Made by a program: the position numbers and the translations under genes
The notes under the pieces: generated by a model
The model's input: the letters and a program-made list of their open reading frames with translations, nothing else
The model's database searches: none
What the model was told of the DNA's origin: nothing
Source: Bifidobacterium aquikefiri
Lineage (GTDB): Bacteria > Actinomycetota > Actinomycetes > Actinomycetales > Bifidobacteriaceae
Reading direction: 5' to 3'
Assembly: GCF_002259795.1 (NCBI RefSeq)
Contig: NZ_MWXA01000005.1
Coordinates: forward strand, 248,001 to 312,000
Length of the DNA stretch: 64,000 bases
Shown here: one piece after another, positions 1 to 51,673 of the stretch
Layout of the letters: each line of letters starts with the position of its first letter
Position numbering within the stretch: position 1 is the first letter of the stretch

Positions 1-525
1 TATGGTCAGGTTGTCAGATTGCGCAAGTGCCGTTTCCGCTCCGATTGACTGCGTTGCTGTGGCCTCGTAATTCAATGGATTGCTGGCCTGCGTCATGATT
101 GTCAACAGCAGACACGATGTGACTGCCATCATCACTGCTGCCATGAGTGTGAGAAAGGAAGGAATCAGTCTCACAAGGTGGGTACAGCGCCAATGTTTTC
201 GTGCTTGCAGCACGATGAGGACGATGATGAGTGACGAGATACACAGCATCAGTGGCATTGATCCGAGTCCGTGCGCTTGAGCAATGCCAAAAGTTCTGGA
301 TGAATCCCGTTCCGTGACATCGTAATTGAGTATCAGCGGCAGAAGCAGCTCAGTCAACCAGATGGTAATGGCTATGGGCAGCATGCGTAGATCATGATTG
401 CCGTTGATGCGATCTTCAACGCTGCTCAATAACGAGCTGAATCGGTGCCGCTGCTCGGCCTTTTCATTGTATGATCGGTGCCTTCGCTTCCGAAGCATTG
501 CATCGTCAGGAAACGCATGCTTCAT
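1..525 (-). CDS. comEC: ComEC/Rec2-family DNA-uptake channel protein, N-terminal part (cut by window edge)
   Basis: The reading frame is open from an ATG at 525 down to base 1, giving 175 codons with no stop, so the gene continues outside the window. The start overlaps the comEA stop as ATGA, a sign of translational coupling. The first 50 residues are charged and polar, followed by hydrophobic stretches near residues 53-71 and 100-120 and a third near 133-150, fitting the N-terminal membrane part of ComEC. ComEC forms the inner-membrane channel that passes single-stranded DNA into the cell. The identity rests mainly on position directly after comEA and on the membrane pattern, because the diagnostic competence and metallo-beta-lactamase-like domains lie beyond the edge. 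Confidence 0.72.
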   Translation of the reverse strand, partial: MKHAFPDDAMLRKRRHRSYNEKAEQRHRFSSLLSSVEDRINGNHDLRMLPIAITIWLTELLLPLILNYDVTERDSSRTFGIAQAHGLGSMPLMLCISSLIIVLIVLQARKHWRCTHLVRLIPSFLTLMAAVMMAVTSCLLLTIMTQASNPLNYEATATQSIGAETALAQSDNLTI

Positions 526-1313
526 TGGATTCTCACTTGAGGACGCAATTTTTCCAACGTTTTCGCACCTATGCCACTGACTTCGAGGAGTTCATCAACG
601 CTACGGAATGAACCGACGCTTTTTCTGTATTCGAGAATGCGTTCTGCCATAACAGGACCCACACCATTGAGAGTCATCAGTTGCGTTGCATCTGCCATAT
701 TGAGATTGATTCGATTGTCAATGTCGGATGGGTTCTGCGCTTGTGCATCTTGCACCGATTCACCTGAAGCATTGGCATCAGGCTCTGTGCTAATTTCTGT
801 GTCTTGTGAGTTGGAAATCTGAGCATCATGTGCTTGAGGCTCTATGTCGTCGCTTTCGGTCGATTCGTCAGATTCAGCATCGACACCCTGTGCCTCATCT
901 GGTGAGGCATTGCCCATGTCTTGAACAAGTTCCGCAAGATTCTCGCTGTTTCCATAGTTGATTCTCTGCCGAATGAGCAAGGTCAGACTTGTAGCCAAGG
1001 CGCAGCTGAGAATCAAAATCACCATGATCGCCTGCGCCTGATTCAACACAAGACGTGGCCGGTCTCGTATTGTCTCTGCTAGAGGTGATAACGGACCAGA
1101 CGCACCAGTGATGCGTGTGCCGTCAACCTGTGCATAATCCTCGCCAGACAACACAGGCAGGGAGGTTAACTCGCTGAGAAAGATATCGGAATCATCCGAA
1201 GGATGATTGTCCACTGAACCATTGGTTACAATGTTGCATCGTTCATTGATGCGATTGAGTCGTATTGTGTGAGGGTCCATCGTTTCATCGTCATCGAAAG
1301 CCCCTGCATGCAC
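522..1313 (-). CDS. comEA: ComEA-like membrane-anchored helix-hairpin-helix DNA-binding protein
   Basis: A 263-residue protein with a cytoplasmic N-terminus, one membrane segment at about 94-114, an acidic Asp/Glu/Ser/Gln-rich linker at about 128-200 and two C-terminal helix-hairpin-helix motifs at about 203-263 (key pieces NLNMADATQLMTLNGVG and LLEVSGIGAKTLEKL). ComEA binds incoming double-stranded DNA outside the membrane and hands it to ComEC, encoded immediately downstream with an ATGA overlap. The SLBB domain often found before the HhH in Gram-positive ComEA is not evident; the acidic linker takes its place. The frame opens at a GTG (1313) with no clear ribosome site, and an ATG at 1280 is an alternative start. 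Confidence 0.82.
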   Translation of the reverse strand: MHAGAFDDDETMDPHTIRLNRINERCNIVTNGSVDNHPSDDSDIFLSELTSLPVLSGEDYAQVDGTRITGASGPLSPLAETIRDRPRLVLNQAQAIMVILILSCALATSLTLLIRQRINYGNSENLAELVQDMGNASPDEAQGVDAESDESTESDDIEPQAHDAQISNSQDTEISTEPDANASGESVQDAQAQNPSDIDNRINLNMADATQLMTLNGVGPVMAERILEYRKSVGSFRSVDELLEVSGIGAKTLEKLRPQVRIQ

Positions 1314-1525: not shown

Positions 1526-4507
1526 TCAGAGTTGAGGCACCACGGAGACAATCTTTGGAGCCTTGACGATTACCTTGCGCGGCGGCTTGCCACCAAGGTG
1601 ATCCTGTACAGCAGGAAGTGCCAACGCCAAAGCCTGCAGCTCATCTGCCGAAATGTCGGGTGAAACCTCAAGCTTTCCACGGATCTTGCCTTTCACCTGT
1701 ACAACGGCAGTGACATTGTCCTTACCGAGATATTGCTCTTTGGCGACTGGCCACTGTGTTGAGGAAAGAGAATCGGCATGACCAAGCTTCTCCCAAAGCT
1801 CCTCACAGATATGCGGTGCAACCGGGGCAAGCATGACCACCAATGGCTCAACGACTGAACGCGGAACAGCCTTCAGTGAGGTCAGATGATTGTTCAGCAC
1901 GATGAGTCGAGAGATGGCGGTATTGGGCCGCATTGCCTCCATCTCTTCAGTCACGTCATGAATCGTGTTGTGCAGTAGCTTCAAGGTCTTGAGATCAGGC
2001 TGTTCATCGACGACCTTCACCTCACCGGAATTCTCATCAAGTACGTTACGCCACAAACGCTGCAAGAACCTCATGCCACCTATGACATTGCGAGTATTCC
2101 ACGGGCGCGACTCTGAAAGGGGTCCCATGCTCATTTCATAGAGACGGAACGTGTCGGCACCATAGGTGCCATACATCTCATCTGGTGTAATGATGTTCTT
2201 AAGGCTCTTGCCCATCTTGCCGAATTCACGGAAAGCGGGCTCGCCATTCCACGTGTATGTGGTGTCCGAACCATCCTGATGTTCTTCAACTTCCGCAGCT
2301 GGAACATATTGACCACGGCTGTCGGTATACGCATACGCTTGAATCATGCCCTGATTGAAGAGCTTGTGGAATGGTTCCATCGAATCAACGAAGCCCAAGT
2401 CATAGAGTATCTTGTGCCAGAATCGTGAATAGAGCAAGTGAAGTACGGCATGTTCAACGCCGCCGACATACAGGTCGACGCCACCGGACGTACCCGCTGT
2501 CTCGTTGTGATGTGGTCCAAGCCAGTACTCACATTCAGCAGGATCAACCATATGCCGGCTGTCGTCCGGATCGATATATCGCAGGTAGTACCAGCAGGAA
2601 CCCGCCCAATTGGGCATCGTATTCGTATCGCGGTGATAGCGCTTGGGACCGTCGCCAAGGTCGAGCGTGACATGGACCCACTCATCATTGCGACTCAACG
2701 GTGCTTCAGGGTTGGTCTCAGCATCCTCAGGATCATAGGTCTTTGGCGTGTAATCCGGAACTTCAGGCAGATTCACCGGCAGCATGTTGTCTGGAAGCGT
2801 GTGTGGGATATTGTCATCGTCATACACGACAGGGAACGGTTCACCCCAATAGCGCTGACGCGAAAACAGCCAGTCCCGCAGACGGTACGAAACCGTACCC
2901 TCACCTACATGAGCCTTCTGCAACCATGCGGTCACCCGAGCGATGGCATCGTCGACGCGCAGCCCATCGAGCGACAATGCATCGCCAAGCCTCTCGGTTC
3001 GTTCAGTCGAAGAGTTGATGACGATGCCATCATGGGACACGAACGCCGACTTGCCTTCATAATTGCTCAGATCATCGTCTGCATCGGCCAACGGCTTGAC
3101 GGTATAGACCACGGGAAGCCCATACTTCGTAGCGAAATCATAATCGCGATCATCACCACCAGGCACAGCCATGATTGCGCCGGTGCCATAATCCATCAGC
3201 ACATAGTCTGCGGTGAATATTGGCAGTTTTGCACCAGTGATCGGATTAGTTGCGTAGAGACCGGTGAACAGTCCGGTCTTTTCATTCTGCTCGTCGACAC
3301 GGTCCTTCGATGTCTTCTTTTCAGCTTCGAGACGGTATGCGTGCACCGCCTCGGCAGGCGTTGCATATCCTCCCGTCCAGAGCGCTCTATGCTCGGATGG
3401 GATGTCACTGGGCCAGTCCTCAGGGACACTGTCAAGCAAGGAATGCTCCGGCGAAACGACTGCAAAGGTGGTGCCGAACAAGGTATCAGGGCGGGTTGTG
3501 TAGACCTTCATATCCTTGGGCTCAGAAGGCGTTTCGACTTCGAAATGTACCGAAGCGCCATGGGATTCGCCTATCCAGTTGCGTTGCATGAGCTTGACCT
3601 TCTCAGGCCAGTCAAGCATATCCAAGTCCGCAATCAGGCGGTGACCGTAAGCAGTGATTCGCATTGACCACTGACGAAGTTCGCGTTGGAATACGGGGAA
3701 GTTTCCGCGTTCGGAACGCCCTTCGGAAGTGACTTCCTCGTTGGCGAGCACAGTTCCCAGACCGGGGCACCAGTTCACCGGGGACTTGGAAATATAAGCC
3801 AGACGGAAGTCGTTGAGCACATCACTCTGTTCCAAAGCATCCAAGGATTCCCAGGACTCGGTTTCATGGCCGGGAATCGTGCGCTTGCCACTCTTGAAGG
3901 CACCGACAAGCTCGTCAATCGGACGGGCGGAACCTGTGCCCCCATCCTTGCGCACGAACTCGGGGTCATACCAGGAGTTGTATATCTTCGTGAAGATCCA
4001 CTGCGTCCAACGCATGTATCCTGGATCGATTGTGGCGAACGAGCGGCGATCATCAAAGCTGAGGCCCAGACGGTGCAGCTGACGGCGCATGTTGGCGATA
4101 TTCTGCTCGGTCGTGATTCTCGGATGTTGACCAGTCTGTACCGCGTACTGCTCGGCAGGCAAACCGAAGGCATCGTAGCCCATTGCGTGCAGCACGTTCT
4201 CGCCCTTCATGCGGTGATATCGACTCACCACATCGGTTGCTATATATCCCAGAGGATGCCCGACATGCAGACCCTTCCCCGAGGGGTATGGGAACATGTC
4301 CATGACAAAATATGGAGTGCGACCATCGGCATGTTTGCCACTGCCGTCCGTTAACTTGCCATCAAGATTCGCTGCCCAGAAACTACCCTGCTGCTGCCAG
4401 CGGTTCTGCCACTTGTCTTCAATTTTTTGAGCAAGTTCTGCGTTATACCGATATTCGGGTTCGGCTGGAACGTCAGCTTGTCCGTTATTACCCTGTTCAA
4501 AAGCCAT
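1526..4507 (-). CDS. leuS: Leucyl-tRNA synthetase
   Basis: Class I aminoacyl-tRNA synthetase charging tRNA-Leu. With the chosen start the protein has 993 residues. The HIGH-type signature is PYPSGKGLHVGH (HVGH at about 81-84) and the KMSKS loop is read as KMGKS at about 764-768, as in many actinobacterial LeuRS. The editing domain inserts between them, and the C-terminus ends with the usual LeuRS C-terminal domain. The frame extends upstream to 4603, but family similarity begins only around residue 50 of that longer frame. Two close ATGs (4516 and 4507) follow a GGAG; the start at 4507 is my choice and is uncertain by a few codons. No T-box motif was seen upstream. Confidence 0.95.
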   Translation of the reverse strand: MAFEQGNNGQADVPAEPEYRYNAELAQKIEDKWQNRWQQQGSFWAANLDGKLTDGSGKHADGRTPYFVMDMFPYPSGKGLHVGHPLGYIATDVVSRYHRMKGENVLHAMGYDAFGLPAEQYAVQTGQHPRITTEQNIANMRRQLHRLGLSFDDRRSFATIDPGYMRWTQWIFTKIYNSWYDPEFVRKDGGTGSARPIDELVGAFKSGKRTIPGHETESWESLDALEQSDVLNDFRLAYISKSPVNWCPGLGTVLANEEVTSEGRSERGNFPVFQRELRQWSMRITAYGHRLIADLDMLDWPEKVKLMQRNWIGESHGASVHFEVETPSEPKDMKVYTTRPDTLFGTTFAVVSPEHSLLDSVPEDWPSDIPSEHRALWTGGYATPAEAVHAYRLEAEKKTSKDRVDEQNEKTGLFTGLYATNPITGAKLPIFTADYVLMDYGTGAIMAVPGGDDRDYDFATKYGLPVVYTVKPLADADDDLSNYEGKSAFVSHDGIVINSSTERTERLGDALSLDGLRVDDAIARVTAWLQKAHVGEGTVSYRLRDWLFSRQRYWGEPFPVVYDDDNIPHTLPDNMLPVNLPEVPDYTPKTYDPEDAETNPEAPLSRNDEWVHVTLDLGDGPKRYHRDTNTMPNWAGSCWYYLRYIDPDDSRHMVDPAECEYWLGPHHNETAGTSGGVDLYVGGVEHAVLHLLYSRFWHKILYDLGFVDSMEPFHKLFNQGMIQAYAYTDSRGQYVPAAEVEEHQDGSDTTYTWNGEPAFREFGKMGKSLKNIITPDEMYGTYGADTFRLYEMSMGPLSESRPWNTRNVIGGMRFLQRLWRNVLDENSGEVKVVDEQPDLKTLKLLHNTIHDVTEEMEAMRPNTAISRLIVLNNHLTSLKAVPRSVVEPLVVMLAPVAPHICEELWEKLGHADSLSSTQWPVAKEQYLGKDNVTAVVQVKGKIRGKLEVSPDISADELQALALALPAVQDHLGGKPPRKVIVKAPKIVSVVPQL

Positions 4508-9844: not shown

Positions 9845-9949
9845 GAGTTTTGCGGCAATTCCGGAGTATAGCCAATGTTTTTTTGCTTGCCACCGGACGA
9901 AATTTCAATGGTTTTGGCTTCGTATACTTCACTACTGCCGCAAAACTCA
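9845..9949. repeat. Family A palindromic intergenic element, copy A2
   Basis: The 105-bp element starts GAGTTTTGCGGCAATTCC (9845-9862) and ends TGCCGCAAAACTC. Both arms read TGCGGCA where other copies read TGTGGCA, a paired change. It lies 28 bases after the stop of the downstream-numbered dehydrogenase gene and about 200 bases upstream of corA. Confidence 0.78.
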
Positions 9950-13570: not shown

Positions 13571-13670
13571 CAAATTTTGCGAACTTGTCAAGGCATAGCT
13601 TCTTTCTCAAGTGAGCATCAATCATCTTTTCGACGATTACGAGGTAATACCTTGTCAAAGTTCGCAAAAC
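13571..13670. repeat. Family A palindromic element, divergent copy A3
   Basis: A 100-bp element bounded by TTTTGCGAACTTGTCAAGG (from 13575) and CCTTGTCAAAGTTCGCAAAA (13650-13669), which are inverted repeats differing by a small indel. Size, TTTTG start, the AAGG after the arm and position 26 bases after the pntB stop match family A, but the arm core reads CGAAC where others read TGGCA. I treat it as a divergent member. Confidence 0.55.
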
Positions 13671-28625: not shown

Positions 28626-28727
28626 TTCATTGTGAACTCACTCAAGTATATAAACCGCGAATAGCTCAATTCGAGCCGTCCATCCCTTGCAAAAAAGGCT
28701 TTTATACTCGAATGAGTTCACAATGAA
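28626..28727. repeat. Family B palindromic intergenic element, copy B1
   Basis: A 102-bp element with inverted termini TTCATTGTGAACTCACTCAA and its partner TTGAGT-like arm ending CAATGAA (28721-28727); the arms match over about 25 positions with three differences. It fills the gap between the converging glgC and sufT stops, 36 and 10 bases away. Each arm contains its own small palindrome TTCAttgTGAA. Confidence 0.8.
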
Positions 28728-37040: not shown

Positions 37041-37154
37041 AATTCGAGTTTTGTGACAATTGCAAGGCACACACTGATCAAATCGTTGATATCTCGACCG
37101 AAAATACTGGGAAAACAGATAGCTGTACTTTGCAATTGCCACAAAACTCGAATT
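37041..37154. repeat. Family A palindromic intergenic element, copy A4 (best preserved arms)
   Basis: A 114-bp element with terminal inverted repeats of about 25 bp: it begins AATTCGAGTTTTGTGACAAT and ends with the inverse, last bases CACAAAACTCGAATT. One clear mismatch in the arms (A versus G in GTGAC/GTGGC). It starts 5 bases after the aroQ stop and ends 76 bases before the pyrG start. Confidence 0.85.
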
Positions 37155-47770: not shown

Positions 47771-47873
47771 GAGTTTTGTTGCCTTTCTTTGGGGTCAAAG
47801 CTCAAAAACGCTGATATGGCGAACAGATGAAGCCAAAAAGTGGCATTGATACTTTCGAATTGCCACAAAACTC
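47771..47873. repeat. Family A palindromic intergenic element, copy A5
   Basis: A 103-bp element starting GAGTTTTGTTGCC (47771) and ending AATTGCCACAAAACTC (47858-47873). It lies 34 bases after the holin-like gene stop and 90 bases after the rpsD stop, in a convergent gap. The left arm is the weaker one (TTGCC for TGGCA). Confidence 0.75.
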
Positions 47874-47902
47874 GCAATCTCGAATACACAATCTCGAATA
47901 CA

Positions 47903-47946
47903 CAGTGGCGTTGGCATGGGGGAATTCCTCCATACCAACGCCACTG
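47903..47946 (-). terminator. 12-bp hairpin after rpsD
   Basis: CAGTGGCGTTGG (47903-47914) and CCAACGCCACTG (47935-47946) pair perfectly, with extra pairing inside the 20-base loop. It lies 17 bases after the rpsD stop. No U-tract follows on the minus strand, so termination is only presumed. Confidence 0.5.
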
Positions 47947-47963
47947 TTGACGAAAACCAGTAA

Positions 47964-51570: not shown

Positions 51571-51673
51571 GTTCATTGTGAACTCGCTAAAGTACAACCG
51601 ACATTTTTTGAGCCGTATCGGGCTCAAAACACATAATTCTGTCAGTCTATACTTCAGCGAGTTCACAATGAAC
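51571..51673. repeat. Family B palindromic intergenic element, copy B2
   Basis: A 103-bp element starting GTTCATTGTGAACTCGCTAA and ending with its inverse GCGAGTTCACAATGAAC (to 51673); 24-bp arms with one mismatch. Inside is a second hairpin TTTTGAGCC/GGCTCAAAA. It lies 56 bases after the guaA stop and 82 bases upstream of the helicase gene. Confidence 0.82.

Follow-up and report, generated by a model that had tools for sequence, protein, structure and literature searches.

MITEs are short, non-coding elements with terminal inverted repeats. DNA uptake sequences of the Neisseriaceae form species-specific dialects that differ by one base and often stand as inverted pairs behind genes. Another family of repeats is that of the REPIN-RAYT systems (Bertels and Rainey 2011, PMC3116915; PMC8049555): REPINs have two conserved inverted ends and a less conserved spacer, are extragenic, reach tens to hundreds of copies and come in flavours, each beside a single-copy gene, with long vertical persistence; PMC3116915 also describes MITEs. 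Among nucleases, the EDxHD homing endonuclease I-Bth0305I (PDB 3r3p) forms a dimer on a target that spans nearly 60 bp (PMC3943268).

The present finding is anchored on a class A element at 37041-37154, behind aroQ, in a 64,000-nt window (the whole stretch of DNA that was analysed) of genome G000, which measures 2.41 Mb in 18 contigs. Like REPINs, elements of this kind have conserved inverted ends that can form a hairpin around a spacer. The probable owner of these non-autonomous two-armed DNA elements of ~100 bp is a Vsr/EDxHD-type endonuclease whose gene lies elsewhere in the same genome, and the whole looks like an undescribed selfish or domesticated repeat system. In a literature set mostly without subscription papers, no title among the matches listed describes such a nuclease-palindrome system; in the same literature, DUF559 combined with 'palindromic' gave off-topic matches only, and DUF559 combined with AbiEi gave none.

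Elements of the window

All five palindromes of the original prediction were found in place by direct sequence check, next to the genes named there (coding for LeuS, a D-2-hydroxyacid dehydrogenase-like protein, a PntB-like protein, AroQ and a Phage_holin_4_2 protein). The window holds six matches to the arm pattern with up to three mismatches (0.08 expected), and an inverted-repeat search recovers the arms as inverted repeats. No strand is assigned to any element. The class A element at 1395-1497, behind leuS, has arms GAGTTGTGTGGCAATTGC / GCAATTGCCACAAAACTC; an element also follows leuS in G016, with CGG arms, and in G005, with A2 arms. The class A element at 9845-9948, behind the dehydrogenase-like gene, has an ortholog in G016 and bears CGG arms, a minority type in G000. 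The arms of the anchor element are 31 nt long and 90% complementary, and its G016 ortholog (C1:598616) has CGG arms.

Two of the five elements depart from the single shared arm proposed earlier. The element at 13571-13670, behind pntB, is of another class (arms TTTTGCGAACTT...), of which it is the sole copy within the 294 kb of G000 examined. The element at 47771-47873, between the convergent holin-like gene and rpsD, is a hybrid of two arm classes (TTGCCTTT / AATTGCC), with one A2 arm GAGTTTTGTTGCCTTT and one A1 arm AATTGCCACAAAACTC; its ortholog, G016 C1:609447, has TGC-type arms. The count of five also needs extension, since two further elements of the same architecture belong to class B (TTCATTGTGAACT). 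One, at approximately 28626-28727 with arms TTCATTGTGAACTC, lies between convergent genes for NTP_transferase and FeS_assembly_P proteins and has a G005 ortholog; the other, at approximately 51572-51672 with arms TTCATTGTGAACTCGCT, lies behind a GMP synthase gene. An Rfam search of the whole window at gathering cut-offs returned two tRNAs only. As side observations, a loop-free 23-bp hairpin (47902-47947, 91% complementary) directly adjoins the hybrid, and a ComEA-like competence gene (522-1313, minus strand) lies just downstream of the leuS element.

Anatomy and arm classes

Thirty-two two-armed copies, read out with at most four mismatches per arm, have arms 84-87 bp apart. The inverted termini claimed originally are real, and pairing runs ~9 nt beyond the quoted arm, through an outermost paired flank of CGAGATTTC type. 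Inward of this come the tip box GAGTTTTG and then the class box, which reads TGGCAATT, CGGCAATT or TTGCCTTT, among others. A few paired but free positions lead on to the inner box AAGTATA, and the centre is a loop of ~50 nt. Across 34 copies, standard pairs make up 83.4% of stem cells (46.2% at most in slid registers), and 22 of the 35 stem pairs show changes on both sides. Alignment A1 omits element C13_104997, which has a one-base shift in its arm. The interiors differ, as had been noted, but the loops are not arbitrary: they have in common a weak oriented consensus around GGCTT...TTTCAACG, with a loop orientation fit of 9086 (200 starts) versus 2870-3638 in five shuffled sets (50 starts).

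The inner-box pattern AAGTATA-N46-56-TATACTT, which revealed the further arm classes B and D, finds 5 elements in G000, 11 in G005 and 12 in G016; the remaining 24 genomes of the genus have none (reversed control 0-2 per genome). In GTDB it occurs in at least 119 stretches, including one labelled Bifidobacterium breve that lacks the arms. Element lengths step by 10-11 bp, about one helical turn. When 88-112 bp were allowed, class B elements measured 97-98 (49/70) or 107-109 (21/70), with none between. The seven distinct class D elements measure 101-102 (six) or 112 (one). Elements of the G024 type, with 82-112 allowed, fall at 82 (1), 91-93 (17) and 101-104 (57), in a sample of 75 made up of 46/46 from G015 and 29/68 from G024. 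Class A is uniform at 102-105 (115/115, 96-112 allowed), plus one of 113 in G005. One orthologous locus is 97 long in G000 and 108 in G005. Part of this stepping could be due to the long forms going back to a small number of ancestors.

An unrelated palindromic repeat, TGTCATCTCGAGCGAGCGCAGCGAGTCGAGAGATCTC with variants, also recurs in G000 (C15:19927, 49894 and 69953). Copies of it lie inside two class A elements, L045 (the C15:19927 copy) and, in variant form, L039. The large-insert copy L045 was considered as an autonomous form and rejected, as its insert consists of other repeat DNA and holds no convincing gene.

Copy number and distribution

Searched across G000, the 18-base arm with up to three mismatches has 76 sites (39 + 37), against 2 (1 + 1) for the reversed arm, and copies are present in the relatives G005 and G016. 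The tens to hundreds of copies per genome anticipated from the window are borne out by 44 class A and 38 class B exact pairs in G000. With an outer-box pattern open to A and D tips, exact pairs number 44 in G000, 63 in G005 and 105 in G016 (the last including class D), and 0-2 in each of the other 24 genus genomes (controls 0-4). Exact class B pairs number 38 in G000, 32 in G005 and 0 in G016, as in the other 24 genus genomes. A covariance model gives 116 strand-matches in G000, at least 129 in each of G005 and G016, and two weak matches in G007 (E 5.7e-4); a 16-base arm with one mismatch allowed has single matches in G021 and G024. In a LeuS tree, G000, G005 and G016 form one clade (support 100/100) in which G000 and G005 are sisters (99/96); the rows G009 and G025 of this tree rest on a wrong frame and are to be disregarded.

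Outside the genus, G089, of another genus in the same family, has four exact elements; their loop is similar and their arms read AGTTTTGAGAACT. The two-arm pattern (GYGGCAATT) has no match in GTDB r220 contigs, a set that possibly leaves out near genomes, nor in IMG/VR. Separately, the outer-box pattern matches 14, 5 and 4 times in G160, G152 and G158, also of another genus in the family (control 0), and these matches may represent further families.

Predicted nuclease genes enclosed by palindromes

In G016, one close pair of D elements and one close pair of A elements each enclose an ORF of 275 aa, the two products being 54% identical. These are the closest pairs among the 7 D elements read and the 43 A elements listed in that genome; the second-closest A pair, 1.9 kb apart, encloses no nuclease homolog. 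Both genes came to light in a search between close elements and so cannot count as independent of the idea, unlike the five remaining full-length homologs.

At E 1e-6, 5 of the 27 genus genomes have a match to the nuclease, with full-length homologs in G016 (2), G005 (2), G000 (2) and G024 (1). All seven have palindromes on both sides, some of them imperfect copies, and for six the flanking class is dispersed in the genome concerned. The flanks are A/A and D/D in G016, A2/A2 and B/B in G005, B/B and a TTATTTTG-type pair in G000, and TTTGTGTAGGG-type on both sides in G024. As in REPIN-RAYT systems, a single-copy enzyme gene lies beside elements of its own flavour, though the enzyme is not a RAYT. 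Most arm classes appear to own a single-copy, element-wrapped nuclease gene.

The G024 gene provided a palindrome family beforehand unseen, predicted from its flanks: the pattern taken from them has 68 copies in G024 and 46 in G015, and none in the 25 other genus genomes (control 0). Several observations speak against the nuclease link. G015 has its 46 elements and no nuclease homolog at E 1e-6. In G000, TTATTTTG(CGG/TTG)CC palindromes stand on both sides of gene C16:51059 and were not found elsewhere within the 294 kb examined; since the flanks of this gene are of that class, the main TGTGG dialect of G000 has no gene found flanked by TGTGG.

More distant relatives follow the pattern in part or not at all. 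A G089 homolog (57%) adjoins one of the four elements of that genome, on one side only, and no such gene lies within 1.5 kb of the other three. G023 and G005 each add one weak or partial match without class-matched flanks; these shorter, distant relatives are at L400 (G023:C5, 1600-2205) and L404 (G005, 1366-1881), the former with a palindrome of CACATCTGAC type nearby (2228-2334). Plasmids gave no match at 1e-10, and IMG/VR gave four weak matches of 51 residues only.

One nuclease locus adjoins ORFs that we take to resemble rplQ and truA. At this locus, the nucleases of G000, G005 and G016 are 46-50% identical and the flanking arms differ as well; LeuS of the clade relatives is 92-94% identical to that of G000. 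The class B nuclease is 85% identical between G000 and G005.

The predicted enzyme

The 275-aa proteins are predicted, weakly by E-value, to be of the Vsr/EDxHD homing-endonuclease type. Across the seven full-length homologs, the C-terminal part matches PF18741 (REase_MTES_1575; E 2.9e-5 to 0.017), and DUF559 is matched in two of the seven (best E 5.9e-4), all Pfam scores being below gathering cut-offs. Among four proteins scanned with PADLOC, three match its homing-endonuclease model (E 6.4e-6 to 0.0047) and the fourth matches Vsr (E 0.01). A profile search of PDB sequences placed a designed protein first (0.003) and 3r3p second (0.006). With an AlphaFold2 model (pLDDT 83, pTM 0.80), Foldseek returned I-Bth0305I at ranks 2 and 3 (probability 1.00, E 0.03, TM 0.72-0.73 by target), behind an unrelated ribosomal chain, and nothing at E <=0.001. 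Residues E171, D204, H222 and D231 are invariant in the seven full-length homologs. Between classes, the N-terminal part is 29-45% identical versus 42-66% for the C-terminal part, as expected if the more divergent N-terminal 160 residues read the arms.

Evolution at orthologous loci

Flanking DNA defines 48 class A ortholog pairs, which overlap and comprise 75 distinct elements. G000 takes part in 32 of these pairs: in 23 of them it has two TGTG-type arms where the sister has two TGC-type arms, two pairs are TGC-type in both species, and seven are mixtures that include A1-A2 switches and hybrids. Of the G005-G016 pairs, 13/16 are TGC-type throughout. As TGC is common to G016 and G005, the arm change is most simply placed on the G000 branch. 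This concerted change was seen within one clade.

Loops also change orientation relative to their flanks. Among 23 class A pairs with a clear match (score >=47.5), eight, representing six loci, have inverted loops: the G000-G005 pairs are seven same and none inverted, and those with G016 are eight same and eight inverted. In class B, 13 of 17 G000-G005 pairs have the same loop orientation and four are inverted. A plain example of inversion is G000 C12:304879 versus G005 1918307. Inversion looks slow, since the clear class A inversions all involve G016, although some of class B separate G000 from G005. A site-specific inversion system would need a recombinase acting between the arms; tyrosine recombinases, all families pooled, occur in 27/27 genus genomes.

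Could the elements be classical MITEs or REPINs, moved by a DDE or Y1 transposase, with the nuclease as unrelated cargo? Terminal inverted repeats, a size of ~100 bp and many copies fit this idea, and so does one recent copy in G005: the B element C1:843006 nearly duplicates 837057, 6 kb away, the flanks being unrelated past ~14 bp, at a site where G016 has no element and G000 has other DNA, with borders that are not clean. Several observations make it unlikely. The Y1 tyrosine transposase (PF01797) is absent from 27/27 genus genomes by a search that was positive in 5/14 control genomes; thus the elements are not RAYT-REPIN, though organised alike. No arm-bounded transposase was seen in the stretches examined, and no clean target duplication was found. 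Orthologous sites are mostly occupied, with a gap of >=90 bp at 89/102 flank projections, a figure biased by the choice of loci, which were collected for having elements; a search for empty sites among these loci found few that are unoccupied, along with partial deletions in which one arm is left.

As a separate observation, G005 has three near-identical class B elements (L366-L368, at C1:174208, 373649 and 1867235), each presumably just 3' of a tRNA-Gly gene or of a 3' fragment of one, as if an integrative element had duplicated its attachment site along with the repeat.

Placement behind genes

Of 115 class A elements from G000, G005 and G016, 113 have genes called on both sides by a home-made hexamer gene caller, and two lack a called gene on one side. 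The preference for gene 3' ends suggested by the window extends to this set, as 107/113 lie downstream of at least one gene. Forty-eight are between convergent genes, six between divergent genes and 59 between tandem genes; 48 of these tandem elements are nearer the stop codon, at a median of 41 bp from it. Gaps of >=130 bp are occupied in 47/59 convergent, 57/136 tandem and 5/39 divergent cases, of which the ratio between gap classes alone is informative, because the loci were chosen for holding elements.

This placement, the fact that the five copies in the window fold strongly (z -2.9 to -7.9) and the compensatory stem pairs would suit 3'-UTR RNA hairpins that end or stabilise messages, selected for RNA pairing, with the nuclease gene as a hairpin-carrying bystander. 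We regard this account as quite unlikely. A T-tract, which completes an intrinsic terminator, follows the stem in 8/107 elements. In the mRNA sense of the 59 tandem elements, stem mismatches number 50 G-U versus 57 A-C, and therefore neither RNA strand is favoured. The loop points either way relative to the upstream gene (35/24) and is inverted between some orthologs. The length steps of 10-11 bp and the genome-wide dialects tied to one gene also argue against RNA hairpins. By mismatch balance, length steps and loop inversion, the palindromes look constrained as DNA. The original prediction had left a choice between MITE-like and REP-like elements and 3'-UTR hairpins: the organisation is REP-like, but the enzyme is not that of REP/REPIN, and the hairpin or terminator reading is weakened by the scarce T-tracts, the balance of G-U and A-C and the inverted ortholog loops.

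Proposed mechanism

Dispersal, class-specific arms, the association of gene and element, and the prediction of a family from the flanks of one gene are direct observations. In the mechanism that we propose, the predicted nuclease, probably a dimer, would read both arms on one helix face and would cut or nick at the element. Repair from another copy would rewrite the arms, spreading arm dialects through the genome, and would rarely yield new copies. Pairing between the inverted arms, in the course of repair or replication, would explain why loops are inverted and why the two arms match. The survival of elements behind genes would be due to the little damage that they cause in such places.

Two readings dispense with the nuclease. 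In one, a host architectural protein or gyrase has its sites in the elements, which host selection keeps behind genes, with arms that track a host DNA-binding protein; fixed spacing in steps of one helical turn and placement between convergent genes agree with it, and it is very unlikely in that it leaves both the class-matched nuclease flanks of each species and the several classes per genome unexplained. In the other, equally hard to credit, arm symmetry and loop inversion come from enzyme-free template switching at inverted repeats alone, which would suit slow loop inversion (0/7 in class A between G000 and G005) and is hard to square with the same two-arm change at 23/32 G000 pairs, the length steps and the gene association.

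Ownership of the elements by the nuclease remains the preferred reading. A more far-reaching version of it is put forward tentatively: a homing-endonuclease-like enzyme might target the whole 100-bp element and, by way of repair, drive the arm sequence that it owns across the genome, repeats and nuclease might co-evolve as lock and key, and many uncharacterised DUF559-type proteins might be keepers of such repeats.

The system would tie an uncharacterised nuclease family to dispersed repeats. It also offers a rule, to read the palindromes around a gene and then count them, by which one unseen family has already been predicted. Finally, a repeat family that changes sequence in concert at fixed loci amounts to a natural experiment.

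Comparison with known systems

The elements are short and non-coding with terminal inverted repeats, like MITEs; no parent transposon with these ends was found in the stretches examined. They differ from the uptake sequences of the Neisseriaceae by long paired arms at fixed spacing and by a class-matched nuclease gene. With I-Bth0305I the nuclease shares its predicted catalytic fold, as judged by profile search and overall structural comparison; unlike that enzyme, it is encoded outside an intron or phage and would act, if at all, on a dispersed family of ~100-bp palindromes. The REPIN-RAYT systems share with this one paired inverted ends, extragenic location, many copies, a flavour-matched single-copy gene and vertical persistence. 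Here, by contrast, the loops are inverted at some loci, spacing changes in steps of 10-11 bp, the arm dialect has been rewritten at fixed loci, and the enzyme is a predicted Vsr/EDxHD-like endonuclease instead of a Y1 tyrosine transposase. Relative to REPIN-RAYT, we therefore rate the system as a known organisation with a different enzyme.
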